Positions 1,076 through 56,110 of a DNA stretch of 56,110 nucleotides are shown piece by piece. How positions within the stretch are numbered: the stretch's first letter is position 1; each line of letters starts with the position of its first letter. A program made the position numbers and the translations under genes. The notes beneath the pieces were generated by a model that did not search any database, was not told where the DNA came from, and saw nothing but the letters and a program-made list of their open reading frames with translations. The stretch comes from a virus, in the IMG/VR virus record IMGVR_UViG_3300030098_005697, positions 1 through 56,110 of that record; one strand, given 5' to 3'.

Positions 1076-3607
1076 CTATGTTTCGAGCCAGTTCTTTCCA
1101 ATCTCAGCCTCTGCTGTGTATTTGAGGAGAGGATTGGATTTCCGTTCTCGGTTCATTGCGGCTTCAAGAAGCTTTGCAGCCTCTTCCGCATCATCTTCTC
1201 GGACTTCAAAGAGAAGAGAATCGTGGCACTGATTGACCAGTCCCAGCCTCTCTTCGAAGTCAAAAGAAAAAAGGTCACGCCCAGCCAGGGAGGAGTAAGC
1301 AATAGTACCCCAGCCGGGGTGACCCATAACTAATTGAAGCATAGCCTCATGAACAATGGAAGCTCCCCCGGATTGAATGGGGTGGTTCACAAGTTCATTC
1401 AGTTTCTCTTCATTTTTAAAGTCTCTTCGGCGTCCCCATAAAGAATCAACGAGGAACCCCTGTTTTCGATATAACTGCCTTGTCTTCTCCCACCATTTGG
1501 GGATTTCAGGGTTGGCCTTCTTCAATCCCTTGACTACATCCCGAATGTCTCGATGAGTCAGGTGAGCATAGATCAGTTTTCCCTCGTCGTCTTCTACCGA
1601 GACCACTTGTTGGTGGATGGTTGGGACTGAGGCTGCATATTGCCACGCATAGAAGACGTTTTTAGTAATACCTCGTGTCCGCTTAAAGGTTCCTTTTCCT
1701 TTCTTGCGTCGGTCCTCAGGGGCACCATCTAATGACCAGATACTCTTCCCATAAACCGCCTCCATATTCTCATTATGTGGATCGAGACCCTCGTTGATAA
1801 TACGGAGGAGAGACTTAGACTCAGCCTCTTCCGCAATCAGACGAAGCTCCAACTGATCCATATCAGACCCTACGAAGAGATGTCCTTCTTCAGGAATGAA
1901 GATGTCACGTAGGAAGGCGGGAATATTCTGAGCGTTGGGACGAGAAGAAGAGTATCTCCCGGATGCTGGGAGTCGGTTGTAGGCAGGATGAACTCTCCCG
2001 TCTGAAAGAACAAGCTTTCCCTGGAGGGGCCGAATGTAGGTGCTTAGGAGTTTTCGGTACCTTCGGACCATTCGAATAGCCTGGAGAAACTCCACCTTCT
2101 CTGCATCAAGGTTGTGATGGGTAATCATTCTTCGCAGAGAATCATCATCTGTACTGGGCATCCCAGTCTTCTCATTGTACTTTTCTGGAACGAGCTTCCA
2201 TTCCCTAAAGAGTAGATTCGACAACTGCATTGTAGAGTTTGGGTTGAATGTTGTGTCCACAATCTGCTTACAAACCGCAGTGTATTGCCCAAGGAGGACT
2301 TCAAAAGCAAGTCCATGCTCCTCAAGCCGTTCCTGGTCTACGCGCATCCCCAAACGCTGCATCCCACAACCAATATCTTGGAGAAGATGTTCTCTTGAAA
2401 CAAGATGCCATTGGTTGCGAGCCTTCACCTCCTGGGCAAGAGGGCCAGCAATGCTGGCAGTAGATGAAACGTCCTTTGCACAATATATGTGGAGTTCCTC
2501 ATCATCTCGGGTGGTGGTGGCAATGTGATTTGCCTTCCAACCTTCCACAAAGTCTGTGTAGTAACTGGTGATAAAGCCCAGGTTGTGGGGCATCTCGTTA
2601 TTTACGAGGAGATGAAGCAGTAGAGTGTCGGCAGCCAGTTTTGGGGTGACTTGAAGTGCGCGCTCACAAACCAATCGGTCAAACTGACCTGCATTGTGTC
2701 CGATGATTGGGACAGGAGCAGTTTGGAGGAAGGTTCGAACGAGTGTGGTTACTTGAACCTCTTCTTGCCCAGTGAAGAAGTCTGGCTCTGCGGGATTAAT
2801 CCTCCGAAAAGGTACCAGGATGCTCAGGTCTTCGTTCCCAATTCCGATGCAGCGCAGTCGGGCTTCAAGCGGAGACTCCATTCCAGTTTCAACGTCATAG
2901 GCAACTGGTTTCCCCATATCTACCAAACGTTCAAAACAGTCCATCAACTCCTGGGCACTTTTTACGATGATAATCTCTGGTTCTTTCCAGGATAATGCAT
3001 CTCGAAAGTATCTTACCGCTCGGGAGAGATCACTAAGAAAGACTTCCCGCCACTTGGGCACTCGGAGAACAAAGGCCGGGTGAATGGTATAGGCCACTTT
3101 CACCATACCCCAGGGCATCTGGACTTCTTCGCATGTTCCACGAAGCGCCATAATAGAGGCATTCCCCCCTCGAATAGCAGAAGCAGCCTCTTTGCCCAGA
3201 CAGATTACTCTTGTGAATCCCTTCATGTCTTCAAGAAGTCGGCCTCGACAAGCTTTTTGGGGGGTTGGAAGAGTGGGTTTTTTGTCTCGGTTTCTGGCAG
3301 TGTTTATCCGTGAGAGTTTAGATATAAATGCCCCCAAGTTCCCTTTGGGAGGGCAACAAGCCATCACATTATTGATATGGCACTCTCCCCGGGACAAGCC
3401 CAGGAGATCAAGTGCAGCTTGAAGCTCAATCCCAGAAGGCCCTACAAATGGCCGACCCTCATTTACTTCATATGATCCAGGGGCTTCCCCCAGAATAAAT
3501 ATGCGGTCATTTGCGTGGGTCTCTGCCAGGACTGGCGAGAAATTATCTGACTTTCGGAGGAATCTTCCCAGTGAACAATCTTCGCAATTGGCGTGCTCAA
3601 GCGACAT
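1076..3607 (-). CDS. Uracil-DNA glycosylase / 3'-5' exonuclease / family A DNA polymerase fusion
   Basis: The 843-aa replicative polymerase. Residues 1-205 form a family 4-type uracil-DNA glycosylase: Cys8 and Cys11 with Cys120 and Cys136 fit a 4Fe-4S cluster, GEAPG starts at 40, PFVG at 53, and HPAFVLR is at 176-182. Residues 210-395 are a DnaQ-like exonuclease (DVE 238-240, HNAGQFD ending at D310, YCAKD ending at D379). Residues 400-843 are the polymerase: RYSSSRPNAQNIP 551-563, motif A D582/Q585/E587/R589, O-helix R645/K649/Y653/Y657, motif C H795-D796. Tyr653 sits where E. coli PolI has Phe762. Ser797 replaces the usual Glu after HD, and Ala658 replaces the Gly after the O-helix Tyr. The ATG has GGAG 7 nt upstream. 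The fusion would link uracil recognition to synthesis. Confidence 0.95.
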   Translation of the reverse strand: MSLEHANCEDCSLGRFLRKSDNFSPVLAETHANDRIFILGEAPGSYEVNEGRPFVGPSGIELQAALDLLGLSRGECHINNVMACCPPKGNLGAFISKLSRINTARNRDKKPTLPTPQKACRGRLLEDMKGFTRVICLGKEAASAIRGGNASIMALRGTCEEVQMPWGMVKVAYTIHPAFVLRVPKWREVFLSDLSRAVRYFRDALSWKEPEIIIVKSAQELMDCFERLVDMGKPVAYDVETGMESPLEARLRCIGIGNEDLSILVPFRRINPAEPDFFTGQEEVQVTTLVRTFLQTAPVPIIGHNAGQFDRLVCERALQVTPKLAADTLLLHLLVNNEMPHNLGFITSYYTDFVEGWKANHIATTTRDDEELHIYCAKDVSSTASIAGPLAQEVKARNQWHLVSREHLLQDIGCGMQRLGMRVDQERLEEHGLAFEVLLGQYTAVCKQIVDTTFNPNSTMQLSNLLFREWKLVPEKYNEKTGMPSTDDDSLRRMITHHNLDAEKVEFLQAIRMVRRYRKLLSTYIRPLQGKLVLSDGRVHPAYNRLPASGRYSSSRPNAQNIPAFLRDIFIPEEGHLFVGSDMDQLELRLIAEEAESKSLLRIINEGLDPHNENMEAVYGKSIWSLDGAPEDRRKKGKGTFKRTRGITKNVFYAWQYAASVPTIHQQVVSVEDDEGKLIYAHLTHRDIRDVVKGLKKANPEIPKWWEKTRQLYRKQGFLVDSLWGRRRDFKNEEKLNELVNHPIQSGGASIVHEAMLQLVMGHPGWGTIAYSSLAGRDLFSFDFEERLGLVNQCHDSLLFEVREDDAEEAAKLLEAAMNRERKSNPLLKYTAEAEIGKNWLET

Positions 3608-10916: not shown

Positions 10917-11414
10917 TCGATGGAACGTTGCAGATACATCCCATAACCTTTAGAGTGTTTTACCCCCTGAAAATGCAGTTAGAACCTACTCTAAAAATGC
11001 TCTAAACCTCGTGAGTGGAGGGGGTCTAAACTGTATGGTATAAACTACCATGTACCACGTAGGTGGTACTTTTAGGTAAAGAGTGTATGATGACCCCCCA
11101 CTCTGGATTGTCTGAGTAGTCAGCGAAAATACCCTTCGGAACTATCATACTCCCAGAACTGGATTGACTTGACTAACGCCACAGGACCTCGTGAGTGTAG
11201 TCCCTACCAGAAAATGGGGTTTCTTTGCCTGATATCTACATCTCTTATAATCGTGTGTAGTGGGTATAAGTTCCGGCGAACGTTCCAGATAAAGTCAATA
11301 CCCTACAACACAGGCAAATTGGGTTGCATAAACGTGGCTTTCTCGGTAGTATCCTCTTGGCATACCCGGATTCACCGGGCGGGCGATGTCCCGTAAGAGT
11401 CTAAGGAGATGACG
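10914..11414 (+). other. Long structured leader/control region without genes
   Basis: About 500 nt with no convincing ORF, upstream of the single rightward gene. It holds tandem hairpins ATGGTA/TACCAT (11035-11051) and GTACCAC/GTGGTAC (11052-11069). A possible long-range pair ACCCCCT/AGGGGGT lies near 10960-11025. Repeats of CTCTAAA and its inverse TTTAGAG occur between 10950 and 11030. A 12-nt direct repeat, ACCTCGTGAGTG, is at 11006-11017 and 11186-11197. This is either a promoter/operator array or the start of a long 5' UTR or small RNA. Confidence 0.5.
11224..11251 (+). promoter_or_regulatory. Candidate promoter for the 11415 gene
   Basis: A perfect -10 box TATAAT lies at 11246-11251. 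The -35 is weak (TTTGCC, 16-nt spacer). It would give a leader of about 155 nt before the ATG at 11415. Confidence 0.45.
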
Positions 11415-12314
11415 ATGCCTCATATCAAACCAAAACATTTACATCCTCAACGCGGAACTGGTTACCATGGTGCTCTCCTGGGCATTGCAGAGGAAGCGAT
11501 AGCTGAAAACGACCTCGTAATTGCTATTGGCTACGACGGAGAACGGATCAAATTTCGCCAAGCAGATACTGATGCCGGTGGAAGAGATATTGGGATCATG
11601 GGTGTAGCTGACCATGCTGCTGGTGTTGGAGAATCTCTTCGAGTTGTTTCATACAAGCTCATTAAAAACGTAGACACCAGTGCTGTATTTGCTGCTGGCT
11701 CTCCAGTTTATGTATCTGATACCGCAGGCGGATGGTCTGCGGCTTCCGGTGCAGTTGGAATCGTTGCTGGTCAAGCACTTGAAAAGCATGCTTCTACTGG
11801 CGCTGTCTTGTTGGCTCCTGGTATGACCAACGCTCGGATGCAGAAAAAACGCGTGATTGCTTTGACGAATGCAACAACAACAGCACGCACAATGCTTGCG
11901 GATGAATCTGGCGCACTCGTTACATTGGACCCCAACACCAATACTGCAACTACAATCACTGTGACCTTGCCTGCTATCGCTGGGACTGCTGGTATCTATT
12001 ATGATTTTGCAATCATCAAAGATATGCAACATACCGGAGCCGATATCATTATCAATACAGCCGGAGCGAGTGAAGCCAACTTTGTTGGATTCCTCACTCA
12101 AGGCACTCCCCAGATTGCCGAGGGCGGGAGCGCCACACATGCAGCATCTGTAAACGTTCTTGAGATTGCACATGGAACGATTACCTTTGATGCATCTGTA
12201 AGCCTAACAACTGGGAATACAAAGTTTCAGGTTATCTCTGATGGAGTCCAGTGGATTATCTCTGGAAACAGTACAGCGGTCAGTGGTGTTACAAACCCAG
12301 TTCTGAGTAACTAA
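11415..12314 (+). CDS. DUF2190-like capsid decoration/structural protein in its own transcription unit
   Basis: A 299-aa protein. The ATG at 11415 is preferred over 11409 because AAGGAG (11403-11408) is 6 nt upstream. Residues 1-135 resemble DUF2190-type head proteins: alternating short strands, repeated Ala/Gly-Val segments and phrases such as GESLRVV and AAGSPVYVSD. Residues 140-299 are a second beta-rich, Thr/Ala/Gly-rich domain. The protein has few charges and no catalytic motif. It is isolated from the head genes at 23-33 kb, between two leftward operons, with a long leader and a strong downstream terminator; this suggests separate, possibly high-level expression. It may be an outer capsid or head-fibre protein. 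Confidence 0.7.
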   Translation: MPHIKPKHLHPQRGTGYHGALLGIAEEAIAENDLVIAIGYDGERIKFRQADTDAGGRDIGIMGVADHAAGVGESLRVVSYKLIKNVDTSAVFAAGSPVYVSDTAGGWSAASGAVGIVAGQALEKHASTGAVLLAPGMTNARMQKKRVIALTNATTTARTMLADESGALVTLDPNTNTATTITVTLPAIAGTAGIYYDFAIIKDMQHTGADIIINTAGASEANFVGFLTQGTPQIAEGGSATHAASVNVLEIAHGTITFDASVSLTTGNTKFQVISDGVQWIISGNSTAVSGVTNPVLSN

Positions 12315-12339
12315 GCCAGCGTAAATCGCAGACAAAAAA

Positions 12340-12368
12340 AAGCCCCTGGCCATTACGACCAGGGGCTT
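12340..12368 (-). terminator. Bidirectional rho-independent terminator
   Basis: AAGCCCCTGG (12340-12349) pairs perfectly with CCAGGGGCTT (12359-12368) around a 9-nt loop. On the minus strand it is followed by a run of eight or nine U (12340-12332), so it ends the MoxR/VWA operon. On the plus strand it follows the 11415-12314 gene with a weaker U tract. Confidence 0.9.
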
Positions 12369-12390
12369 ACTTGTTTCTATTGAAACTTAT

Positions 12391-12769: not shown

Positions 12770-13690
12770 TTACTCCATAAGTTGAACGATTGCGGTGGTA
12801 GCAATACCATCAATTTCATCGCATCTTGTTTTGATGCTCTCCAAACCCCCGCCAAAGATTTTAGCGTAGCGTTCTGCACGCTCCTGGAGGCTGATTGCAT
12901 CCTCTCTCCGAGACTCCAGTGCACGCTGGCCTTGAGAACCCGATAGGATTTGAGCTTCCAACTCATCAGCTTTCTGTTGAATCTCCCGCTCTGCTCTTTC
13001 AACAATGGTTCGAACCCCCTTTGGGTCCATTGCTGTCCGAAGCCGGTACAATCGATTACCCTCGTATGCTTTCTCCAGGCAAGCTCCAAGCCACGCCCAG
13101 GTTTTGACATATTTCTCAGGGAGCCAGTAAACTCCTCCACGAGATCGCAGGGAAGTCCCGTCCATCCTCCAGCAAGCATCTGCCAATGCCTTGCTGACCT
13201 TTGCCGATGGCACCTTGCCTAACTCCACATGGTAGAAGGCTCGAAGGGAAACAATGGTTGGGTGCTCCTTCGGAACTGGGTTTCCTGTTTTAACAGAGAA
13301 CAACTCTGGTTCCTGGCCATCCTTTGGTACTGGAACTGAGAACAGCACCTCAGTACCATTTACTGGGAGACCATTTTCCTCAGTAGCGAATCTTCGCGCT
13401 ACTTGGTATCCGCTGTTCTTCTTCTTCTCCAAGGGTTCAATGACTGCTCCCATTGGGGAAAAGACTTTAGCCAGAGCCTTCTTTAACGCGGCTAAACGCG
13501 TGTTCCTTTCAGGCAGGCACTTGATGAAGCCTCCACGAGGGGGAATAACTCCCCGACTTGCAGCATGCGCATCACACGCCTCCAAGTTTCGCTTCAACGT
13601 TTCCCAGTTTGTGCTCTCGGTGAGCGACCATAGGACAACACAGCCCGAAAGGCTGACGCTCTTCTCTTCTACTTTGCCTGTTATAGACAT
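12770..13690 (-). CDS. Unknown protein of the MoxR/VWA operon (possibly DUF6744-like)
   Basis: A 306-aa protein with the operon's typical leader GGAGAAAGCA directly before the ATG. The N-terminal 200 residues mix strands and helices, with VIPPRGGFIKCLPERNTRLAAL at about 48-69 (quoted in part: PPRGGFIK, NTRLAALKKAL). Residues 230-300 are a charged helical region that could form a coiled coil. From memory it resembles phage DUF6744 proteins, which often sit near AAA+ genes; this needs a profile search. The gene follows stem-loop A and the VWA gene. Confidence 0.7.
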   Translation of the reverse strand: MSITGKVEEKSVSLSGCVVLWSLTESTNWETLKRNLEACDAHAASRGVIPPRGGFIKCLPERNTRLAALKKALAKVFSPMGAVIEPLEKKKNSGYQVARRFATEENGLPVNGTEVLFSVPVPKDGQEPELFSVKTGNPVPKEHPTIVSLRAFYHVELGKVPSAKVSKALADACWRMDGTSLRSRGGVYWLPEKYVKTWAWLGACLEKAYEGNRLYRLRTAMDPKGVRTIVERAEREIQQKADELEAQILSGSQGQRALESRREDAISLQERAERYAKIFGGGLESIKTRCDEIDGIATTAIVQLME

Positions 13691-13721: not shown

Positions 13722-13781
13722 ATTGAGTGCAGGCCGAGACCCACCAACATCGCTGCTGGTGGGCCAAGGTCTGAACTCAAT
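13722..13781 (-). repeat. Stop-codon-anchored stem-loop, copy A
   Basis: Outer stem ATTGAGT (13722-13728) with ACTCAAT (13775-13781). Inner stem CCCACCA (13740-13746) with TGGTGGG (13757-13763), loop of 10 nt. Read on the minus strand, the TGA stop of the VWA gene (13779-13777) lies in the 5' arm. The element ends just before the leader GGAGAAAGCA of the next gene. It shares its layout with copies B, C and D. Confidence 0.85.
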
Positions 13782-15111
13782 CGTCAACGACGATTTTCTT
13801 CATCCACACGGGCACTCCTCTTCCACCATTATTGCAGTGTCCCAAAATCACTGCGATTTGTTTGCAACCTTTAGAGGGCTTCAATGGCCACGGGGTATAG
13901 CCATCTGTCAACGTGACAATAATGTTGGGCCGAGGTTTCAGGGCCAGAGCAGCTTCAATTCCAACCGTCATATCAGTACCTCCCCGCCCTGTTATCTTAA
14001 TATCTTGCGCTCTCCGGAACACTTGAGCTTCCCCTGCTCTGGTATCGCAGGGAATAGCTCTTACCTTTGCACGCTTCAGAACCCGCACCGCCTCATCAAT
14101 CTCTGACAAAGCAGCCGAAACGTCGGCATCATTCATGGACCCCGAAGTATCAACCACAAAACACACACTGGGAATAGGACTTACCATCCCAGCCAGAACT
14201 ACACCCTCCTGGGCAGTTGCCTGGAGCATCGAAGGAGACCGGTAACTTTTCTCTGCTCTCCCCTTTACCCAAACTTCCGCCTTCTTTAGTGCAGACTTGA
14301 AGGCGTTCTGCCACTTCACCTTTGGAGGCTTTAATGGAGAGGTGAGACGACTGACCCAGTTTCCGGGGAGGTCTCCCCTTGCCTGGGAAGATGTCGCAAT
14401 AGCCTCAGCCACTTGCCGCTTCATCAATCGGGCTTCCGCCCCAGAGACTCCAGGACTTCCACCTTCATCGGGAGGAGCTTCTTCCCAAGGACGGGGAACA
14501 CCGTCCACGATACTCCCACAGTCACCATTTCCCGGAGATGCACCAGAGGACTCTTCTCCCTCACCCTCCTGGGCATCATCTCCTCCTCCCCCTTCCCCAT
14601 TTTCGTCCCCATCTTCGTCCCCATCTTCTCCATCTCCATCCTCTGGGGGTTCTTCTTTCTGGAGGAGGTCATAGTATTGCTCTGCTGAGAGGTCAGCGGA
14701 CCAACCAAACTTCTCTGGCTGGAGAGCATCGGGAGGAAGCATCCGACGGAGCTTTGGACAGCAGTTTATTTCCAAGTCGCACGCAACGTTCCAAAGTTTG
14801 GGGTCACGGGAACCCCTCCGCTCGTGGTGTTCCAATACACCATGAAAGATTTCATGGCCAATTAGGCCCGTAAACTCTGTCTTGGAAAGCCCCTCAACAA
14901 ATTTGGGGGAAAGATAGACCCTCCAGAACTGATCCATGGCAGCAGTCTGCACTTCATCCGACCAGATAAACTGAACGCGACAAACTGCCGACGGAAGGTA
15001 AGGAAACCCCACCGGAGTATACCGACTCTCCCCCGGCTTGCCAATGGCAACCGGGTTTAGGAGGCGCGCCATAACGCCCTCTAATTTCATGCGTAGTTCA
15101 CTACTAACCAT
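13777..15111 (-). CDS. VWA-domain protein with N-terminal metallopeptidase-like domain
   Basis: A 444-aa protein. The N-terminal domain has HEIFH at 86-90 (HExxH zinc motif) followed by LWNVACDLEIN (106-116), as in DUF2201-type metallopeptidase/VWA proteins. A highly acidic, Gly-rich linker covers about 153-200. The C-terminal VWA domain has a complete MIDAS: D321-T-S323-G-S325, T379 and D403. VWA proteins of this kind pair with MoxR/RavA AAA+ ATPases in chaperone or metal-insertion systems, and such an ATPase is encoded two genes upstream. Its ATG overlaps the previous gene by 8 nt. Whether the HExxH site is a working protease is unknown. Confidence 0.9.
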   Translation of the reverse strand: MVSSELRMKLEGVMARLLNPVAIGKPGESRYTPVGFPYLPSAVCRVQFIWSDEVQTAAMDQFWRVYLSPKFVEGLSKTEFTGLIGHEIFHGVLEHHERRGSRDPKLWNVACDLEINCCPKLRRMLPPDALQPEKFGWSADLSAEQYYDLLQKEEPPEDGDGEDGDEDGDENGEGGGGDDAQEGEGEESSGASPGNGDCGSIVDGVPRPWEEAPPDEGGSPGVSGAEARLMKRQVAEAIATSSQARGDLPGNWVSRLTSPLKPPKVKWQNAFKSALKKAEVWVKGRAEKSYRSPSMLQATAQEGVVLAGMVSPIPSVCFVVDTSGSMNDADVSAALSEIDEAVRVLKRAKVRAIPCDTRAGEAQVFRRAQDIKITGRGGTDMTVGIEAALALKPRPNIIVTLTDGYTPWPLKPSKGCKQIAVILGHCNNGGRGVPVWMKKIVVDD

Positions 15112-16111
15112 GCTTCACCTCTGTGATTCTCCAACCGAGGACCTCTCCAGACTCTGGGTATCGCCTCCGAAACTGGGCTTCCCCTAAGTACCCCAGTTGG
15201 GTACCTGCCTTGGGCCAGTGCCCACCGTGCTCATAGTTATTTTCAACTGCCACAGAGGCAGGAGTGGGAGTACCAATTTTATACCTCCAGTTGAACACTC
15301 TTCTCCCCGTTCCGGGGTGACGGTACATTCTCTCTACTGGTTCCTTGTATACAACAAGACCCCCGCCAAGCTCTTCCAGCACAACAACTCTTGTGCCCTC
15401 AGTGTTGAAGGCATGAAAGTACTTCTTAACAGTGGGCCAATGGCCACTAACTTCTTTATCAGGAAAGCTTTTATTGGCAGCATCTCGCAGGCCATCTCCT
15501 TGAAAGTTTCCTGGTAGGGAGTAGAGAAAAGTTCTCTTGTGGAATTGAAACTTTCTCTGCCCTTGACTTCGCATCCAGAGAACGCGGGCATGAGCACTTC
15601 CACGTCCATACCTAATACTTGCATAATCACCCCACTTGGGGACAATCGCCTGTGCCGCTTCCCGGTGTGCTTGAAGTTCTTCGCGAAGGACCTTTGCTCC
15701 TCGAATAAGGGGAGCAGGAATATCACTACGTTTTTGGTTGTGTCTCCCGATGCCTGGGTAATTCTTCCCGTTCGGGAAGTGCGCTCTCCAAGCATCCCGA
15801 ATCTGGTAGCACCGGCATATCCCGGTGTTGGTTTCTCCAGCCAAGCCAAGCAGCCCAGCAATCAGGTCCTCTTCGGATACCCCATCTGTGACCTCTTGGT
15901 GGTCATGAAGAAACAAGTCTCCATTCCACCGCAGGGAAATGCGGTGCCTTTTCCCCATGCAGTTAACGTTCGCTGTAACTGGCCCCTCCCAGGGGGAGCC
16001 AACAGCCTTGTGCTTTCGCACAAGCTTCAACTGCTTCTTTCTGTTCGCTCTTGCGCGCCGCTCCTGGCGCTTCCTTAACTTTCGATTTTCTCTTCGTGTT
16101 GCTTTACTCAT
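15104..16111 (-). CDS. Unknown basic protein between MoxR and VWA genes
   Basis: A 335-aa protein. The start at 16111 is supported by AGGAGA 7 nt upstream and by overlap with a short upstream ORF (TAATG); a GTG at 16264 would add a hydrophobic stretch but has no ribosome binding site. Residues 1-45 are extremely Arg/Lys-rich (RRENRKLRKRQERRARANRKK), a likely nucleic-acid-binding or flexible tail. The remaining 290 residues contain many aromatic and basic residues but no motif I recognise. It is sandwiched between the AAA+ ATPase and its VWA partner, so it may be a substrate or third component. Confidence 0.75.
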   Translation of the reverse strand: MSKATRRENRKLRKRQERRARANRKKQLKLVRKHKAVGSPWEGPVTANVNCMGKRHRISLRWNGDLFLHDHQEVTDGVSEEDLIAGLLGLAGETNTGICRCYQIRDAWRAHFPNGKNYPGIGRHNQKRSDIPAPLIRGAKVLREELQAHREAAQAIVPKWGDYASIRYGRGSAHARVLWMRSQGQRKFQFHKRTFLYSLPGNFQGDGLRDAANKSFPDKEVSGHWPTVKKYFHAFNTEGTRVVVLEELGGGLVVYKEPVERMYRHPGTGRRVFNWRYKIGTPTPASVAVENNYEHGGHWPKAGTQLGYLGEAQFRRRYPESGEVLGWRITEVKHG

Positions 16112-16191
16112 TACTTTGTCTCCTGATTTTGCTTGGTTTTGGTTCTTCTTCCTATTCTTCCTCTTCCTACTCTGAACTTTAGTACAAACAT
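16111..16191 (-). CDS. Possible 26-aa basic leader peptide
   Basis: The ATG at 16191 has AAGGAG 5 nt upstream and the ORF ends in TAATG, sharing one base with the next start. The peptide is strongly basic (VGRGRIGRRTKTK). The excellent ribosome binding site and coupled stop suggest it is translated; no function is known. Confidence 0.4.
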   Translation of the reverse strand: MFVLKFRVGRGRIGRRTKTKQNQETK

Positions 16192-16272
16192 ACTTTCTCC
16201 TTTGGTGTAAACACCACGAGAGGCACCCGCTCCAGAGAACGAGTGCCCCAAGCACTGCCGACACAATCAGAG

Positions 16273-17538
16273 TTAAGCGCCCATGTAGGCCTTAATTACA
16301 GGGGCAAACGCCCTCATGGCCGGGGGAACTTTCCCCTTGAGAGCCTTCTTGATGTGGGGTTTCTGAAACTGACCATCGGACATCAAACTCTTCACAGTCC
16401 GAACAATCATGCCCTCCTTCCCAGTGACCTCTTTGGCATTGAGAAGGAAGTCCCATGCGGCAAGCCACGCGGTTGCATCCTTCTCCTGGGCACTCTTCTC
16501 AAGTGCCAGAGAAACCACGTTCTGGCAAATCACCAAGACTTTGTGGTTATCCTTGGCGTACATTTCAAAGATACCTTTGACGGCATCTTTGTCCCCTGCC
16601 ACCCGGAGGCATTCCCTGGGAGATGGCAAATCCCAGTTGGCCTTGAAGGCCAAAAACTGATTGGTGATATGGCTGCTTATGCAGCCTTGGAGCAACTTCA
16701 TCTCGGCATCTGCCAAGATGGAAGCCGGAACCTTCCCCTCTTTTCGAAGGGCTTCACACGCAGTCAGCAGGAAGATGGCTCCCAGCCAAGAGCGAGAGTT
16801 GGCACAGGGACCAGCCTCTCCTAAGAGAACTCCATCCAGGGCATTCTCTGGAGAAGGTTTCGATAGCATGTACTCTCCATTCTTCTCTAAGAACGCCGAG
16901 ACTAATGTCCTGGTAGACACTGCTTCTCGCCTCCAACCGGGAGGGAGGCTTATGATGGGAGGAGTGGGGGTTGGATTGTCTTCACCTCGGGAGAAGGCTT
17001 CAAAGAAGTCCTCTGTATAAGAATCATATTCCTCCCAACTGGGAGCCTTCATGATTAGCTGGCAAAATCTGCTGGCCATCGGCCCTGAGAATTGTTCCCC
17101 AGTTGTACTGCTCTCTGGAGGGTTCAACATCGCTACAATGGCGGTGTTCTTCGGTAGCCGAACTGTTCCCAGTTGTGCCCCTGTGAGCACGTTCTGGAAT
17201 GCACTCTGAACATGCGTTCCACCCTCCACTGCCTCATCGATTATCAGGCATCCTTCCCCAGGCTTCGCTTCCAAAACAGCATCAAATATTCCACTGGGAA
17301 GGAAGCTTGCAACGTTCGCCCCCGGGCGGATGTATGGAATACCCGCTACCGCCTCGGGAATAATTTGTGAGCAACTAAAGTGTGCCCACGTTCGGAACAT
17401 TGCATTGACAATTGCTTTCACACGAGCGCTCTTGCCGACGCCAGGGTCACCAATCAAGGCGACTCCCAGACCCTCTTCAGTTTCCTGTTGTACTCTAAGG
17501 CCGATTTGAAGGGCCATTATTGTTGCTGACATTTTCAT
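16273..17538 (-). CDS. MoxR-type AAA+ ATPase
   Basis: A 421-aa AAA+ protein. Walker A is GDPGVGKS at 30-37, followed by the MoxR-like phrase PEAVAGIPY at 61-69, Walker B CLIIDE ending at D101-E102, and a sensor 1 segment AIVAMLNPPE around 129-138 with the key Asn. The C-terminal 250 residues are helical lid and an extra domain. MoxR ATPases act with VWA proteins to remodel or load cofactors into targets. The VWA gene lies 1.2 kb downstream in the same operon. The ATG has AGGAG in the recurring leader GGAGAAAGCAAAA. It could act on virion assembly or on a host protein; the target is not visible. Confidence 0.92.
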   Translation of the reverse strand: MKMSATIMALQIGLRVQQETEEGLGVALIGDPGVGKSARVKAIVNAMFRTWAHFSCSQIIPEAVAGIPYIRPGANVASFLPSGIFDAVLEAKPGEGCLIIDEAVEGGTHVQSAFQNVLTGAQLGTVRLPKNTAIVAMLNPPESSTTGEQFSGPMASRFCQLIMKAPSWEEYDSYTEDFFEAFSRGEDNPTPTPPIISLPPGWRREAVSTRTLVSAFLEKNGEYMLSKPSPENALDGVLLGEAGPCANSRSWLGAIFLLTACEALRKEGKVPASILADAEMKLLQGCISSHITNQFLAFKANWDLPSPRECLRVAGDKDAVKGIFEMYAKDNHKVLVICQNVVSLALEKSAQEKDATAWLAAWDFLLNAKEVTGKEGMIVRTVKSLMSDGQFQKPHIKKALKGKVPPAMRAFAPVIKAYMGA

Positions 17539-17566
17539 TTTTGCTTTCTCCTATACTGACTCGAAA

Positions 17567-17624
17567 TTGAGTACAGTAAAAGGCCCACCAAGCTTTCGAC
17601 TGGTGAGCGATTTGCTGTACTCAA
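17567..17624 (-). repeat. Stop-codon-anchored stem-loop, copy B
   Basis: Outer stem of 10 perfect pairs: TTGAGTACAG (17567-17576) with CTGTACTCAA (17615-17624). Inner stem CACCA (17586-17590) with TGGTG (17601-17605), again a 10-nt loop. On the minus strand the TGA of the 65-aa gene (17623-17621) lies in the 5' arm, and the leader of the MoxR gene follows. Confidence 0.88.
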
Positions 17625-17818
17625 GCCCTGAAATACTCTCCAAAGAGGAGCACCAACTTCTTCTCCCCAAAGGAAGCCGCTACTAAGTAGTGCTCCCCCA
17701 AAGACCTTCTTACAGCACTGTCTTCAACTGGAACCCAAACAGGTCCCAAGTTCTCCCAGGTCTCTCCGGAGACCTCCAACACTGTGTCTAAGAAGGATGC
17801 CAATGTTTCATGTTTCAT
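17621..17818 (-). CDS. Hypothetical small protein
   Basis: A 65-aa acidic protein beginning MKHETLASFLDTVLEVSG. There is only a weak ribosome binding site (GAGAG) before the ATG, but the stop codon is embedded in stem-loop B in the same way as for the neighbouring genes, which supports it as a real gene. A short helix is followed by strands (GPVWVPV, HYLVAASF, KLVLLFGEYF). No family is recognised. Confidence 0.6.
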   Translation of the reverse strand: MKHETLASFLDTVLEVSGETWENLGPVWVPVEDSAVRRSLGEHYLVAASFGEKKLVLLFGEYFRA

Positions 17819-17885
17819 GTTTATTCTCTCTTGAAAATCGGGGTAAACCTACCAAACCGTGTGAACCTGGCAAACCCCTATCAGT

Positions 17886-17911
17886 GTTTCTGGAGGTCAC
17901 CCCCCAGAAAC
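17886..17911 (-). other. Intercistronic hairpin
   Basis: GTTTCTGG (17886-17893) pairs with CCAGAAAC (17904-17911), with further G-C pairing in the loop. It lies between the zinc-ribbon gene (stop 17943) and the 65-aa gene. Its sequence differs from copies A-D and it does not include a stop codon. Confidence 0.6.
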
Positions 17912-17942
17912 TGTCTCAATGCAACAAAACTAAGAATTCCTT

Positions 17943-18128
17943 TCACTCATCGGGATTCTCCTCTGCCTTGCTACGGCAAAATACACACTCAAAGTGTTTT
18001 GGGTCGATGAATCTTGGGCTCTCAGCCAACTCACGGTCAGCGCAGACCGTGAGTTTGATTGTAAACAAAACGGCGTCCTTGTATTTATTAGTGCGGGATA
18101 CGCACTTAGGATTACTACACCTAAGCAT
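17943..18128 (-). CDS. Small zinc-ribbon-like protein
   Basis: A 61-aa protein. The start at 18128 has AAGGAG about 6 nt upstream; the longer frame to 18206 does not. Two cysteine pairs, C4/C9 (CSNPKC) and C48/C51 (CVFC), can hold one zinc ion, with strands in between (AVLFTIKLTVCADREL). Small phage zinc ribbons of this size may bind nucleic acid or host proteins. The C-terminal tail is acidic. Function unknown. Confidence 0.7.
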   Translation of the reverse strand: MLRCSNPKCVSRTNKYKDAVLFTIKLTVCADRELAESPRFIDPKHFECVFCRSKAEENPDE

Positions 18129-18174
18129 GAACCTCTCCTTTTTCGTTTCCAAGGGTTGTTGTTGTTTTGGTCTC

Positions 18175-18339
18175 TCAGGCAAGAAGCCTAAGGACCTCCC
18201 AGACACAAACAGACACTGCTAAAGCATTGACTCCCATCAACACAAGAAGCGCTCGAATCTGAGCACTCCCCGAGGACCAGCAATTGGAGAAAGTTAAGAT
18301 GAGCCAGAACCAAATCGGGAGCATTAGAAGGTAGAACAT
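18175..18339 (-). CDS. Small membrane protein with two predicted TM helices
   Basis: A 54-aa protein whose ATG shares one base with the stop of the previous gene (TAATG). Residues 2-17 (FYLLMLPIWFWLILTF) and 29-47 (RALLVLMGVNALAVSVCVW) are both long enough and hydrophobic enough to cross a membrane. It is not near the lysis cassette. It could be a holin-like or membrane-anchoring component of this operon. Confidence 0.6.
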   Translation of the reverse strand: MFYLLMLPIWFWLILTFSNCWSSGSAQIRALLVLMGVNALAVSVCVWEVLRLLA

Positions 18340-18506
18340 TAGCTGTTCTCCCGGGGAAGAAGACCGGCCTGAAAGGCTTCAATTAACTGGTCAATATTCC
18401 GGTCTTCCTTTTCCAACTTCTCCAAGCGCTCAGTCTCTGTACTGGGAACGCTCCCAGCACAACCGGTTTGAATCTCCCAAATCATTGCTTCATAATTGCT
18501 TGGCAT
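18339..18506 (-). CDS. Hypothetical 55-aa protein
   Basis: Starts MPSNYEAMIWEIQTG at 18506 with an AAAGGAG ribosome binding site. It is short, acidic and helical in the C-terminal half (ETERLEKLEKEDRN). It follows stem-loop C and is translationally coupled to the membrane protein gene downstream. No family is recognised. Confidence 0.65.
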   Translation of the reverse strand: MPSNYEAMIWEIQTGCAGSVPSTETERLEKLEKEDRNIDQLIEAFQAGLLPRENS

Positions 18507-18531
18507 TTTGCTTGCTCCTTTGTTTTCCTGC

Positions 18532-18592
18532 TTGATTACAGGCGAGCAACCACCAGAGAGGAACCCCGCTGGTAGTTACCGATTGTATTCAA
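18532..18592 (-). repeat. Stop-codon-anchored stem-loop, copy C
   Basis: Outer stem TTGATTACA (18532-18540) with TGTATTCAA (18584-18592), one T-T mismatch. Inner stem AACCACCAG (18548-18556) with CTGGTAGTT (18569-18577), one mismatch. The 5' side shares CAGGCGAGCA with copy D. The minus-strand TGA of the 90-aa gene (18591-18589) lies in the stem. Confidence 0.83.
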
Positions 18593-18861
18593 ACAGCTTT
18601 CACATACTCAGGATGGAGAGAAACTTTGATACCTCCATCTCTATCGAGAGAGAAGGCGTCCCCACGAGGGCCATAACCTTCACATAGGTACGGCAAACCC
18701 TGATGCCAAACCGTGATCTGGCCAGCATACGAAGTTACTCTTCCATTGCTGACCGTGTTGTATGACCGGTCTTCCAGTCCCTGAATCTCATCCCAACGAT
18801 TTGAAGCATTCCGGCGGAATGCCTTGGACTTTGCTTTCTCAATAATCTCTTTCTTATTCAT
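18589..18861 (-). CDS. Hypothetical 90-aa protein
   Basis: The ATG at 18861 has AAGGAG 8 nt upstream and lies just after stem-loop D; the stop lies in stem-loop C. The N-terminus is basic and helical (MNKKEIIEKAKSKAFRR). The rest is strand-rich (GRVTSYAGQITVWHQGLPYLCEGYG). No family is recognised. The gene is held between two copies of the stem-loop, like a cassette. Confidence 0.7.
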   Translation of the reverse strand: MNKKEIIEKAKSKAFRRNASNRWDEIQGLEDRSYNTVSNGRVTSYAGQITVWHQGLPYLCEGYGPRGDAFSLDRDGGIKVSLHPEYVKAV

Positions 18862-18882
18862 CTTTCTTACTCCTTCCCCTGC

Positions 18883-18942
18883 TTGAGTGCAGGCGAGCAG
18901 CCACTAAAGAGTCTCTCCTTAGTAGCTACCGGCTCCACTCAA
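18883..18942 (-). repeat. Stop-codon-anchored stem-loop, copy D
   Basis: Outer stem TTGAGTG (18883-18889) with CACTCAA (18936-18942). A middle pair GAGC/GCTC and an inner stem ACTAA/TTAGT (18903-18907 with 18919-18923) complete it. The minus-strand TGA of the 70-aa gene (18941-18939) lies in the 5' arm. Confidence 0.83.
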
Positions 18943-19151
18943 ACAGCTATTTCATTGAAGCTCTTTAGTTTCTTGTTGTGTTCTGAAACTTTCAAGGCCT
19001 GGATGGCCAGTTTCAGGTGGCCTTGAATCCGCCGGATTTGGGGGTTCTCTTGGCATCCAGCATACTCAACCAACTCTTCCAACTCTTCCAGCGCCAATTC
19101 AAGGTGCCGCTGAGTGACCGAGTTGAGAGCTTGTTCTCGAAGATTAGACAT
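18939..19151 (-). CDS. Hypothetical 70-aa helical protein
   Basis: The start MSNLREQALNSVTQ at 19151 has GGAGG upstream and overlaps the previous gene by 8 nt; the longer frame to 19319 lies wholly within that gene and is rejected. Almost the whole protein is predicted to be helical with Leu and Glu spacing (LELALEELEELVEY), so it may oligomerise. Its stop codon is in stem-loop D. No family is recognised. Confidence 0.65.
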   Translation of the reverse strand: MSNLREQALNSVTQRHLELALEELEELVEYAGCQENPQIRRIQGHLKLAIQALKVSEHNKKLKSFNEIAV

Positions 19152-38273: not shown

Positions 38274-40688
<2,415 letters not shown>

Positions 40689-40691
40689 ACT

Positions 40692-43600
40692 ATGGCCAAC
40701 GGAGATCCTATCCCTCGGATTACAGACGAGGATCGCGAAGCGCTGAAGCGTGCCCGCCAACCCACAGCCCCAGCAATAGGTGCGCCAACTCCAGAGCCAA
40801 CAGAACCAGAAACTCAACCAGAAATCCGCACAATCCCCCGGGCAATCCCTACTCCGGAGCCTCGCCCGGGACAACTTCCTTCCCCCGCCAGACGCCTTTC
40901 AATCGAGGATCGTATCTCTCGACAGCGAGAGATGCGTGGCCTAATGCAGGGAACGCAGCCTGAAAAGCCTCTGGAACCGGCAGAACCTACGGGACCCACA
41001 GAAGAGCAAATTGCGGAGTTTCGACAGCACTTTACCAATATAGCTACCAATCAGAACTTCACAGAAAGTGAAAGCCAACTCCTGAATAAATGGCTTGATG
41101 CCTCCACCGGGCAAGGACAGTTTGCTTCCATCCCAAGTTTGGCGCATCTTCAAGATCGCTTGGGGGAAGAGCTTCTTCCGCTCCACGAGCTTCCCGATGG
41201 CTTCCTCTTTGGGCTTCGCCAGGAACAGGTTGCTCGTCATGGTCGCCGACTTCTATCTGGTGATCCAATTGGTTCTACCCAATCTAACTATTATGGTGGA
41301 GCACCTGATGGATATTCAGAGGAAGCCCTTGCATCTCTAAGAGAGAACGAAGCTCCAGAAGCAGTAGCTCTCCTAAAGACCATGTTCCCAGAGGGCGAAG
41401 AGGCTCCACGACCTGGAAGTCCTCAGTGGGAGCAAAAGTTTAATCAGTGGGTGAGTGACTATCTCCGCAACGAGGCTAACGAGGGAAGACTTTATGCAGG
41501 AACCACTCGGGCCGGAACTCGGCTTGCTGCCCTGGAGGAGCAAGGAGCGATAACTCCAGAAGTTATTCTGAAGTCTGGCGCTCCCATTGCTGAAGAGCTT
41601 TTCTTTACTGAGATTGCAAGACCCAGAGAAGAGGACTGGGCAGAAGCGCAGGAGCGGCCTGCTGCCCGAGCGGGGGCACGACTTCGAGAGCGTGAAGCTC
41701 GAATTGAGCAGCTATCTGCGGACCCCCGATACCAAAGAAGAAGGGGAGATCTTCAGGGCTGGCTGGATAAGAACAACTACACTTTGGAGGACATTCAAGC
41801 CGAGCTTGAAGAATACTTTGTCCGTCCGGGAGCCACAGAATCGGTCCGTGTAGGTGAAGTTGTCCTCAGGGACCCAGAAAAGACTCCTCCGATTCTCACT
41901 CAATATGCTCGTGAGCAGTATCTTTCAGCGATGGCAGCCTCTGAGGGCGAACTTCCTGAGTACCTGCCTCAGATTCCAGGTTCTGTCTCCAACCTCCCAG
42001 CTTTCCAGGAAGGGGAGGCTCGCTTCAATACTCCTCCGGGAGAGGTTGCAACTGGAATCTCGCCCGCTCCAGAGGATGCGTCCTCCTGGGAGTATAGGCC
42101 CACACAGCTACAAGTTGAAGGGACTGCTACTGGTCCAGACTATTATGGAGACCGGGCAAGAGAAGCTGGGTTTGATATCGAGGCTGGTATTCTTGACCGC
42201 TTCCAGTCAGAAGAAGCCAAAGACATCGCTCGTCGATCCTTTAATCGGATCTTGGACATCGAGGACCGAGACAAGCGAGCAGAATATATTCGCCGCTTTC
42301 GAGAGGACATCAACTGGCAGAGCGAGTGGATCCAGGAAACAGCCCAGGAGGTCGCGGAATCGCGAGCCTCGGTCGCAGCACAACTACCACGGGCAATTGA
42401 AGTTTCTCTCCCCCTTCGTCCGGAAGATGTTCGTTTAAATATCGATATGCGAGGGCAGATAGATATTGGAACCCTTCGAAGAGATCTTGTTACCTACCAT
42501 AGCGACAAGATTCTGAAAGACCGGTATGAAAATGCTCAGTTTGGTTCTCTGAGTGTCGAAGACAGGGACCTTGTCCTCAAAGATGCAACCTATGCAGCCA
42601 ATGCCGACATCTCGACTTTCACCAGTATTATGGTGGGTTCGGGCGCGCTTATTCTGGATCCTGATCCGCTACAACTAACACGGGATTTAGCCAATCTTCC
42701 TGCTGGACTTAATGTTGCGATGGCGGCGCTGGCCCCAACTCCAACTCATGTTTATTCGCGAGAACATATCACTCAAGGGCCAACAGAAGAGGAGTTTGGA
42801 ACCCGCTACCAAGATGACCAAAGCTTGGTCTCAGTACAGCAGTTCAATAATCGTGGCTTCGTAGACTGGCTCCACCGAGCAAATCCCACCGCTTGGGCTG
42901 CGGCAGTTTTGAATCACTACACATCTGAAGTTGAACTGGGCGAGGCCACAACTGGACGTGTAGCCGATCAGATGTTCATAGATGGACTTACAGAGCAGGA
43001 TACAGAGGTTTCAGTTGCAGACTTAAGCCCTGCGGTGGTTGGAACAAAGTTATTGGCTCGCCACTTGGGCCTTGCATTCGCGCCTGAATCCCAAGACGAT
43101 CTGGCGACTCGAATGCGTCTGATCACTGAAGCACGTAGTGCTCCTGTCCTTTTCAACACCACCTCAGATGCTTTTGGTGACCTTGCTGTCTATAATGATT
43201 TTAGTCCAGCAGCAGAAAAAGCCGCTCGGATTGTGGGCGGCTTCGTTGGGTTCCTCCCAGAGCTTAAATCCCCAGACCCAATCATTGGACTATTGGCTGG
43301 TTTCCGCGTTGCAAACACGGGACGAAAGACCTGGAAAGCGTGGGTAGAAAATACGCCCCGCGTTCTTGAAGAAACCTCCGCTCGATATTTTAAGCAGTGG
43401 GATGAAGCTCGCAGAGCAGATGATTTTCAGGGGATGAATGAGGCAATCACATCCCTTAGGGGAGAGTTGGAACAAGGAAGGTTCTCACTTCTTTCTGTAG
43501 ATTTACCCTACGTGGGGAGAGTCGGGTTCCGCGCTGCGGGTGCTCAGAATGCTGCTCTGCGTCTTGCTGATGTTATCACTGCACAAAGAGCACGCCTTTC

Positions 43601-46600
43601 TCCTGCCTACCAAACACATATGGCAAAGCTTCAAGGAGAAGCAATTCGCGCTCGACAGGCACTTGCCCGTGCATCTCGACGAGCGGGAAGTGAGGCCCCC
43701 GTCCTTCCAGGGGCTGGAGTTAGTCTTCCTGTCCGAAGAGGAATCGCAGTCAGTCAACGTATGCGACAACTTCGGGGAGAGGGTCACTCTCGGGAAGCTG
43801 CGTGGCAGATTGCTAAAGATGAAGTTGCAGAGCAAGTCAACTCTGCCAATGAGGCAATTCGAACTGCAACAAAACCCGGCGCTGTCTTTGCTCGAACCGG
43901 CGATGATGGGCTTGTCTCTTACTATCTCCGAGGAGAAGATGACAAGTGGTATGCCCTGGCGAATCAAACAGATGTTGGGGAAATAGTCGCGGCAGGCCAA
44001 GGCACCATCACCCTGGGCATGCCCGCTGCGGGTGTGCGGGGCTTTGTTGGAAAAGAAGAGATCGCTGGGGTCTTTCGTGGGGTTGGAGACGAGGTTCCAG
44101 TAGAAAACCTACATGGTGCTGTTGAGATTAGTCTTGCCCCAGAGCGGGGGATATGGGGCGCTCTTCGCGAAGCCGACCCAGCGATCCCAGCCCGATTGGA
44201 ATACACGGCTGGTCAGCTTCGTCCTGATCCATTCTTCCGCTACTTGGACAGAGACGAAGGGTTCAGATGGAAAGTAGGGGAAGCTGAATATGCTCCGGGA
44301 ATGGCTGATCTTCCCCTCGTGGGTAAAGAAGCAGTCTCTCGTACAGCTTACAATCAGTACCTGAAATCGCTTGAAGCACGCGCAAAAGCTCTCTCTGCGC
44401 AGTATGAAGAAGCTCTCATAGAGCATGAAAGAATTTCTCGCATAGCAAAAGATTTTGCAGATGAACGCTCTGCGATGCAAAATCAATACCGGGCAGCCGA
44501 GAAAGAAATCCGCCCCATCTATGATCGCATCTCTGAGATTGATGTGACCCTGGCAAGGGCAGAAGAGGCTTTTGCAGCTATTGTAGCTAAAATTGGAAAA
44601 GCAAAACAAGAGCTTCCAACTCTGCGAACAGCCCAAGAAAAGGTCATCCGAGAGTTGGAAAACACTGCAAGAAACATTGCTAAAAACGCAGCGGATCTCC
44701 AGAAGGCCACAACAAAACAGTCTGCGCTCTCAACTAAGAAGGGAGTCACTAAAGACGACTATGTCAAAATAGAGAACACGATACGAAGGCGTCGAGCGGA
44801 CGAGTTCAATCTTGATCTACAGCAGAAGTCCCGACAACAACGCCGGGATCGGATTAACGCTAAAATTGCATCAAACAATCGTAGTGCCGAAGATGGCCTT
44901 AAAGAGATTCAGAGGCTTGTTAATCAAGAAGCTACTCTTCTTGCTGAGAGATTAAAGCTCACAACTCGGGCAGATGGACTTCTATTTTCCATGCGCCTGA
45001 CAGAGACCCGACTCCCAAAGATCGATCCCCAAGCCGAGCTTGCTCTGGCTGATGACTTGGTCTATCCCCCAACAGCTAAAGCACCCGCTCGGGAGTCTAT
45101 AGAAGATGCTGCTCGGAAAGCAGAGCCTATCAGTGATTACGATGTCAATGTTGAAATGGGGTATCCTGGCCGAAATCCGCCTCCTATGCGCCCGCCCACG
45201 CACCAGCTTCGACCTCCAAAGAATGATGCCACAAATCCGGTACGAGGGGAGATGTGGGAAAAATTAAAGGGAAGGTTACTGGACCCTCAAAAGGAGGTGG
45301 ATGACTTGGGAGGGCGTCCGATCACCCGGAGCCGATGGAATCCAGACTCCCAAGCCACGTTTGATCAAGCAAAAGACCTGGCTTTAGGACTGAGGGATGA
45401 TGAAATAATTGTGGCAGTAGACAGTTATCTCCATGCCAATAAATCTTTTTGGGACACCGTCCATACGATGCCTAAGCCTTTTACGGACGATGCATATAAG
45501 GCTTGGCCAGCAAGCCCCGAGGTCATCCCCGATCCCCAGGTTCGGGCAATCTGGAACCACCTTCACAACAACATCGATCACCTCGAAGATGTCGGTAATA
45601 GTAAGAGTGGCACAATAAATTGGAAATGGAACCAAGAAGAATGGTCAGAAATAGCTCAGACCATTAGCAAAGAGGACTATATTTTTGACGCTGCTGATGG
45701 AATGAAGCCGCAAGACGAAGTCTGGAGAGAAGCATTAGAAAACATTAGAGAGTGGCGTAATATAATTGCGGAAAAACATAATATCCCTGATTATACGCCT
45801 TATACTCCCGATGCCTGGGACGAGGCAGCAATCGCAGCCCGAAAAGCAATAGCGGAGAAGGAAGCGGGCAGAGAGGCCACTCGCCTTGAGGCTCTTGACA
45901 CTCGTGTTCAGGAACGCCTACAGCGTCAACCTCCCGCCCCGGGAGCAGCAGATGATGTACCACTTGAGATGTCAGATGCTGGAATTACGATTCCACCAGA
46001 GGTTCGACTCAGAGAGTTGGAAGAGGCAATAGAGGCCCTCCCACGACGCGGAACTCTTGGGCCAACAGAGGCTCCGATTGGAAGAACCAAAATCCCAGGG
46101 ATCAAAGAGGACATTTTTGAGCCTCCTCGGGTTCCTCGAAAGGTCAGTGATCGAAAGGTTAAGGCAGCAGAAAAGAAACTCGAAGAACTTTGGTCGGAGC
46201 GTGAAGCTCTTCATGCAGAGCGCAAAGCTATAACTCAATCAATAGTCGATGGCCGCGCCAGTTGGGCAACCCATAGTGGGCCGGGTTCTCGACGCTTTGC
46301 CATAGGTGAGCGGCTTAAGGAACTTGAGGACCTGAAGAAGGCCGCAGAGAAGGAAGTGAGGGCTGCTAAGGCGGCTCGGAGTGAGGCACAAAGTAAGATT
46401 GAGGCTCTACCGGATAGACCTGTCCGGAGAAAGCGCAGCGATACCGAACCAATTCCTCCGCATCGTCTTGAGCGTGCCTTGGAAGATCAGCCCTCTCCTC
46501 CAGTCCCCACCGCCGAGATGGTAAAACGCCTAAAGGATTCAGCCAAGGCCTCGAAGAAAGATTTAAATCTGATTCGAAGAGAGCTTCGAGATGTTTCTCA

Positions 46601-55010: not shown

Positions 55011-56110
55011 AATGGTCCTCTGCCACATTGACATAACTCCACTTCTTCCTGGGCTTTCCCTTTGGTCGAAAAGTGCTCATTATGATTACCTGACACGGGG
55101 CATCCTCCAGCGCGCACATAGTTTCCCTAAGAGTATCCATATCCCACATCCTGTCGTCAAGGACAAGAACAGATAGACCCTCTGTTGGAAGCACCAATGC
55201 CGCAGCCATCGCAGCCAAGACTCGTACCTCAGTACTCCCTGACATTGCCCGATGAATGACCCCACATGGCCAAGAAACTCCCCGATCTTCTTGTCGGAGA
55301 ATCCCATAGTAAAACTTTCCAGATTCTATACTACAAAAGAGGGATTCCCCCTCGGGCAAGAAACGAGAAGCTCGGGCACAGTAGGCAGGAAGAAGGTCTT
55401 TGGTGGTCTCTCGAATTGCACCATTTATTATAGCCTCTGCCGCCTGGAACATTGCTCCCCAACGAACAGCTTCTCGGGCATCAATCCGGACTCTACCTGC
55501 CATTTCAGCCATGAGCTTCTGCTCCAGGAGAGCTTGGACTTCTTCTGAAGCCTCTACGCTGTTGTTCAGAGCCTTCAATTCTTGTGGCGAGCCGAGACCT
55601 TCCAACTCCTGGGCACAAAAGGAACGAAGTCCTTCATTGTTGCGGTAAATCTTTCTTAGCTGTTCAAAGTGCAATGAACGAAAAAGGTCTTTCCATGCTG
55701 TGTAGATTTCACTTTTATCTACTGATTGCGCTCCAGAGAAATGAGTGAGAGTTTGTTCCAAAGCTTTTGCCTTTGCTCTGGAGTTCCTCTTCTTTGAGGC
55801 GATTTTCTCCAGGATGTCCAGGAGGGATTGTGGAGAGTGTTTGAAGTCTCTTGGGGTTTCCTCTGTTGTGAAGGTTTCCAATATTTCAGGGGGGAACTCC
55901 CCAGCAGATGGTGGAGCCAATTTTGTCAATTCCTTCAAGGTCATTTTCTGTCCGAAGGCCTCAAAGAAAAAACGGATGGCTTTGTCTGAAGACCCAGACA
56001 GTTTTGCTTTCAGAGCCGTGATAGGGAGGCCCACTTCTGCATTGATTGAGAGATCGAATTCTTGTTTGGGCCGCTTTCCTCTGGTCATACTCCATCGTGA
56101 GGAATCCCCG
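54991..56110 (-). CDS. SMC/Rad50-like ATPase, C-terminal part (begins at 353)
   Basis: The continuation of the gene that starts at 353, open to the end of the window; bases 56018-56109 duplicate 1-92. In the full 459-aa protein the signature-like AMSGSTEVRVLAAMA is at about 374-388 and Walker B LSVLVLDD at 399-406, after a helical middle (about 180-310) with Glu/Lys/Ala content but no long SMC arm. It is short compared with Rad50/SbcC (over 800 aa), closer to RecF-like or compact phage ABC ATPases. The stop TGA lies within the 30-aa ORF. Confidence 0.85.
   Translation of the reverse strand, partial: GDSSRWSMTRGKRPKQEFDLSINAEVGLPITALKAKLSGSSDKAIRFFFEAFGQKMTLKELTKLAPPSAGEFPPEILETFTTEETPRDFKHSPQSLLDILEKIASKKRNSRAKAKALEQTLTHFSGAQSVDKSEIYTAWKDLFRSLHFEQLRKIYRNNEGLRSFCAQELEGLGSPQELKALNNSVEASEEVQALLEQKLMAEMAGRVRIDAREAVRWGAMFQAAEAIINGAIRETTKDLLPAYCARASRFLPEGESLFCSIESGKFYYGILRQEDRGVSWPCGVIHRAMSGSTEVRVLAAMAAALVLPTEGLSVLVLDDRMWDMDTLRETMCALEDAPCQVIIMSTFRPKGKPRKKWSYVNVAEDHYVDDAT
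56018..56110. repeat. Terminal overlap of the circular assembly
   Basis: Bases 56018-56109 are identical to 1-92. The next base differs (G at 56110, A at 93). A gene continues in frame across the junction, so the molecule or its replication form is circular or circularly permuted, and the overlap looks like an assembly overlap rather than a biological terminal repeat. Confidence 0.9.

Follow-up and report, generated by a model that had tools for sequence, protein, structure and literature searches.

Hairpins at the gene junctions of a leftward operon

The window, meaning the whole stretch of DNA that was analysed, is a virus record of 56,110 bases (IMG/VR record IMGVR_UViG_3300030098_005697). 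It carries a direct terminal repeat of 92 bp at 1-92 and 56018-56109 and is thus probably a complete phage genome; a direct terminal repeat of 96 bp is present in the relative G019. The gene content includes a family A DNA polymerase, a Sak4-like protein, a helicase, a primase, a terminase, a portal and capsid proteins. Within the DNA polymerase A reading frame (1076-3607, minus strand), an N-terminal domain of the uracil-DNA glycosylase superfamily (Pfam PF03167, residues 32-185) is fused to the exonuclease and polymerase domains. A giant reading frame of 3389 amino acids, without a Pfam match, occupies 40692-50861 on the plus strand, and a short tandem repeat of CCAGAA-type units (39951-40094) lies inside a reading frame of 804 amino acids.

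The genes of interest belong to a leftward operon on the minus strand, which encodes a MoxR-type AAA ATPase (16273-17538, phrog_1297), a DUF2201 metallopeptidase/VWA-like protein (13777-15111, Pfam PF13203 and PF09967) and a DUF6744-like protein (12770-13690, Pfam PF20529 at an E-value of 2e-5, which is under the curated cut-off), the last having homologues in 10 relatives. Between the end of a plus-strand gene (11409-12314) and the leftward genes, a strong terminator-like hairpin with a T-run is found on the minus strand at 12338-12370.

Related stem-loops in four gaps of this operon had been proposed in a sequence-only reading of the DNA, and all four proved to be strong hairpins on the sense (minus) strand, situated in the first part of the operon. 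Element A (13722-13781) marks the passage from the VWA/metallopeptidase gene to the DUF6744-like gene, with the upstream stop codon (TGA, 13777-13779) inside its outer stem; element B (17567-17624) separates a 65-residue reading frame from the MoxR-like ATPase gene and likewise encloses the stop (TGA, 17621-17623). Elements C (18528-18596) and D (18879-18946) lie 3' of a 90-residue reading frame and of a frame ending at 18939 (71 or 126 residues), their outer stems taking in the TGA codons at 18589-18591 and 18939-18941, respectively. Folded as single strands, A, B, C and D reach -36.7, -30.0, -33.6 and -42.6 kcal/mol (z of -6.6, -6.8, -6.4 and -6.6); 200 dinucleotide shuffles gave no fold as stable. 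In a genome-wide scan of 66-nt windows (minus-strand background: mean -14.5, standard deviation 4.8), A and D took the first two places for hairpin strength, with B and C also in the top 18. The next start codon follows 17-24 nt past the 3' arm in A to D, which agrees with the earlier description of an element ending shortly before the next translation signals. Similarity is highest within two pairs (A/B, 71% over 65 nt; C/D, 75% over 72 nt) and lower across them. The final codons before the stop, GCT GTT, are common to C and D, as if the element had carried the end of the upstream gene along with it.

3' of the MoxR gene lies a fifth hairpin with this architecture, element E (16205-16264, minus strand). 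It is built of 4 bp, a 1x1 loop, 4 bp, a 1x1 loop, 3 bp, a 2x2 loop and 13 bp closed by a 4-nt loop, and folds far better in the sense than in the antisense direction (-34.4 versus -16.1 kcal/mol); the sense fold is also the better one in A, C and D, and the two are equal in B. The membership of E is less certain because neither of the covariance models described below (R2 and R3) matches it and because the MoxR stop (16273-16275) lies 8 nt outside its stem. E overlaps what may be an upstream extension of the next reading frame (GTG start at 16264), and a possible frame of 26 codons starts 3' of it at 16191. The claim that the TGA sits within the outer stem in every case accordingly stands for A to D and fails for E (four of five copies), and the outer stem of the type TTGAGT/ACTCAA ascribed to each copy does not extend to C, which has the variant TTGA-A-TACA / TGTA-A-TCAA.

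Selection on RNA structure among related phages

Relatives were sought through the terminase, which at 57-76% identity led to 23 IMG/VR loci beyond one already known; the best terminase identity of any relative to the window was 76%, so that no close relative is among those found. Named phages gave no DNA match to the region and no portal match, GTDB genomes gave no terminase relative, and the VWA protein as sole query recovered no relative in IMG/VR. Twelve related records were read whole or to the end of the fragment, and by tblastn a VWA-like gene was present in 10 of the 12 and a MoxR-like gene in 10 of the 12, at about 20-35% protein identity.

Operon junctions with hairpins of this architecture were found in seven related genomes or fragments (G001, G009, G010, G011, G012, G020 and G021). 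G001, G009 and G020 retain a hairpin of wholly different sequence at the VWA stop, and in G010, G011 and G012 it begins roughly 8-14 nt past that stop; none follows the VWA gene in G008, G013 and G018, and the hairpin is hence not obligatory there. The family as assembled comprises 34 elements from 8 genomes, selected manually after the surroundings of stop codons had been scanned for hairpins, with 17 hairpins that lay inside genes or were irregular in shape left out. The listed elements all occupy same-strand junctions, mostly 15-35 nt ahead of the next start, and of their 34 stops, 25 overlap the stem and 9 lie outside it, a proportion conditional on the scan having been made near stop codons. 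Across 13 genomes or fragments, hairpins with E <= -26 occur at junctions at 2.0 per kb of sense strand versus 0.9 per kb overall.

The general shape is a hairpin of about 24 bp, in which an outer stem of 7-10 bp and an inner stem of 11-14 bp with a small loop are separated by regularly placed 1x1 and 2x2 internal loops. Unpaired columns 10, 13 and 16 recur in alignment A6, so that the internal loops belong to the design. Among 19 canonical copies, both partners vary in 24 of the 30 pairs, and the covariation score is 0.614, against 0.228 when shuffled and no more than 0.174 with a slid partner, although part of this score is built in since the copies were chosen as hairpins; all alignment-based statistics rest on the hand-curated set. 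The more independent test is the comparison of four orthologue pairs defined by BLAST, in which 19 differences include three double changes and six one-sided changes that keep the pair, with no pair broken. The compensatory changes that the sequence-only reading had named as a check on its proposal are thus present. Pair counts from a further alignment (A7), which contains antisense model matches, were kept out of the evidence. The inner stems have little sequence in common between copies and yet remain paired, with many G-U pairs, so that RNA pairing is under selection; judged from these comparisons, the family is a real RNA structure.

Covariance models lend further weight to this assignment. 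A first model (R1, from a MAFFT alignment and an RNAalifold structure) captured the inner stem only and was replaced. Its successor (R2), trained on the relatives together with C and D, recovered the held-out copies A and B at 24.7 and 32.9 bits, and a model trained on relatives only (R3) found B at 24.6 bits (E-value 2e-4) as well as the copy in G020; other viral sequence totalling 694 kb scored 19.6 bits at best. The sense strand is the more stable in 32 of the 34 elements, by a mean of -10.7 kcal/mol, against a sense-antisense mean of -6.2 for control hairpins inside genes at a similar energy cut. This preference points to RNA rather than DNA, the control being a partial one because both sets were picked by sense energy.

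Rfam release 15 gave no match at or above the gathering score in the window and the relatives L116, L110 and L131, and the present alignment could supply an entry for the family. The exact pattern TTGAGTNCAG...CTGNACTCAA returned nine stretches in IMG/VR, none element-like, all being poor folds or unrelated near-perfect inverted repeats, and the pattern TTTTACTGTGCNNTNNNGC gave chiefly chance matches, with element folds only in G011, G021 and one near-identical contig. One near-perfect inverted repeat, with arms of nearly 30 bp (L009 2596-2652, L010 5052-5108, L011 291-347), recurs in three other viral contigs, whose flanking sequences are nearly identical.

Candidate functions of the junction hairpins

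The elements are best read, with a probability of roughly 0.6, as intercistronic RNase III processing sites of the T7 type in the mRNA of an early leftward operon. The observed basis comprises the structure, its covariation, its location on the sense strand, the family across relatives and the breakpoints of gene content at the elements; that RNase III is the enzyme, that it cuts and that the cut affects the mRNA are all three what we infer from it. The polycistronic RNA would fold at each junction into the hairpin of about 24 bp and be cut there by the host RNase III, dividing the transcript into shorter mRNAs, of which the upstream one would keep a stem remnant close to its stop codon and the downstream one a short A-rich leader with a Shine-Dalgarno sequence. 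The stop codon would lie in the 5' arm because the element forms a complete gene-junction module of stop, hairpin, leader and Shine-Dalgarno sequence, and the same modularity would let homologous recombination swap genes between elements. A part in RNA processing or stability had been among the roles first suggested, and it is well supported by the covariation, the homologous elements of relatives, a shape suited to an RNase III substrate and the missing U-run.

It is rather unlikely that the hairpins instead serve uncut, as 3' stabilisers that block 3'-5' exonucleases and protect the upstream message without any RNase III cut. Stable sense-strand hairpins directly at stop codons would suit such a role and the covariation is compatible with it, but the regular internal loops and the covarying outer stem exceed what a barrier needs, and in the absence of a cut or of termination the hairpin has no 3' end to protect.

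Evidence for gene exchange comes from G011 and G012, which share a mean identity of 94.5% over 32 kb of alignments and differ in the early region by inserted or replaced stretches. In four of the six differences in their collinear chain, one end or both fall no more than about 25 nt from an element (G011 1594/1595, 2351/2845, 3786/3789 and 3878/4864), six being too few for a firm statistic. As these inserted and replaced stretches have a boundary at an element, the elements appear to act also as recombination joints, and the early notion of a repeat that moves with gene cassettes gains in substance. The 3' arm and leader, nearly identical among the copies of one genome and their best conserved part, would give the homology for recombination. 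Both observations would also fit elements that are mainly joints for shuffling cassettes, akin to the promoter early stem-loops (PeSLs) of T4-type phages, with the hairpin a by-product of DNA palindromes. This is improbable, however: shared DNA alone would suffice for such joints, the inner stems differ in sequence and stay paired with many G-U pairs, so that RNA pairing is selected, and the elements of the window are without a promoter-like site, a scan of the minus strand for the sigma-70-like type having found none.

There is similarly little likelihood that the elements are partial transcription terminators (attenuators) that tune the levels of successive genes. In some copies of G010, G011 and G012 the inner stem is followed by 4-6 U, and termination could occur there; the inner stem of B was flagged as terminator-like, a weak match and the sole one among the window elements. 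The scan flagged 20 sites in total against 13.3 +/- 4.1 in shuffles, so a single match at B means little. Against termination, A, C, D and E carry no U-run after either stem, nor do the copies of G009 and G001, and the outer stem, for which termination has no need, covaries.

Translational coupling or bypass, in which a ribosome terminating at the in-stem stop governs both the hairpin and the restart of translation at the next gene, is highly improbable: the stop does lie in the 5' arm in all four copies A to D and in 25 of 34 overall, and the bypass gap of T4 gene 60 likewise holds a stop and a stem-loop (PMC3014915), but here 80-89 nt separate stop from start, each downstream gene has its own Shine-Dalgarno sequence and start, the codons before the stop (GAT, GCT, GTT and GTT) are not repeated as a landing codon just past the hairpin, and the stop is outside the stem in E and in 9 of 34 copies. 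The spacing and the separate Shine-Dalgarno sequences likewise leave the controlled re-initiation suggested at the outset without support.

Returning to RNase III processing, a broader proposal can be made tentatively. The elements may be portable gene-junction modules of one clade, in which stop, RNase III-type hairpin, A-rich leader and Shine-Dalgarno sequence travel together, process the early mRNA and serve as recombination joints for gene swaps in the MoxR/VWA region, selection acting on the RNA shape and hardly on the sequence of the inner stem. The elements mark the junctions of the early operon and could aid the reading of gene order and gene gain.

Comparison with known systems

Intrinsic (Rho-independent) terminators and the elements both place a GC-rich inner stem at a gene's 3' end. 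The elements differ in that four of the five window copies are without a U-run and in that the inner stem lies within an outer stem that covaries; identity was rejected as a GC-rich hairpin directly followed by a U-run is not what A, C, D and E present. In T4 gene 60, a stop codon and then a stem-loop occupy a gap of about 50 nt (PMC3014915). The succession of stop codon and stem-loop is shared, but two separate and complete genes with their own start signals flank the present elements, with no matched take-off and landing codons, and a bypass of this type was rejected on these grounds. The T4-type PeSLs are described as stem-loop modules at gene junctions that are repeated within a genome and edge shuffled genes (PMC4503421, PMC3950731). 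Here too, stem-loops stand at junctions where genes have been gained or swapped, as between G011 and G012. PeSLs contain an early promoter, however; identity with them was rejected because the sigma-70-like scan found no promoter in the window elements. The hairpin of the window is also long, its internal loops are ordered, and it is no terminator.

The closest likeness is to the RNase III sites of T7, which are intergenic hairpins of about 50-60 nt in polycistronic RNA with a short loop and internal loops, placed just upstream of the translation signals of the next gene. Both are irregular hairpins of about two helical turns (here about 24 bp with 1x1 and 2x2 loops), and the layout, namely an intergenic position, no U-run, no promoter-like site and an A-rich leader with a Shine-Dalgarno sequence, matches that of the T7 sites, from which we infer the same role here. 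The T7 junctions holding RNase III sites, after Dunn and Studier (1983), were folded, and in R0.5, R6.5 and R18.5 the upstream TGA lies inside the stem. A stop in the outer stem, seen here in four of five window copies and 25 of 34 in the family, is therefore a further likeness, and the statement that no described family has its stop codon built into the stem no longer holds. R1.1 of T7, between genes 1.0 and 1.1, is an RNA of 60 nt with an internal loop that is cut by RNase III in vivo (PMC6121014, PMC8708148); its internal loop is asymmetric (4/5 nt), in contrast to the mostly symmetric loops of the new elements. Cleavage is known for the T7 sites, whereas the new elements are candidate sites, and a role in gene shuffling is not described for the T7 sites in the literature consulted. 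The T7 genome (L136) gave no match to either covariance model (R2 or R3) and no detectable sequence homology; T7-type sites are defined by their cleavage, and sequence homology is not part of the definition. If the proposed reading is true, mRNA processing sites in the style of T7 would exist in a distant, uncultured phage clade without detectable homology to those of T7, and RNase III sites for mRNA processing would be joined in one element with PeSL-like joints for gene shuffling, two things so far described separately.
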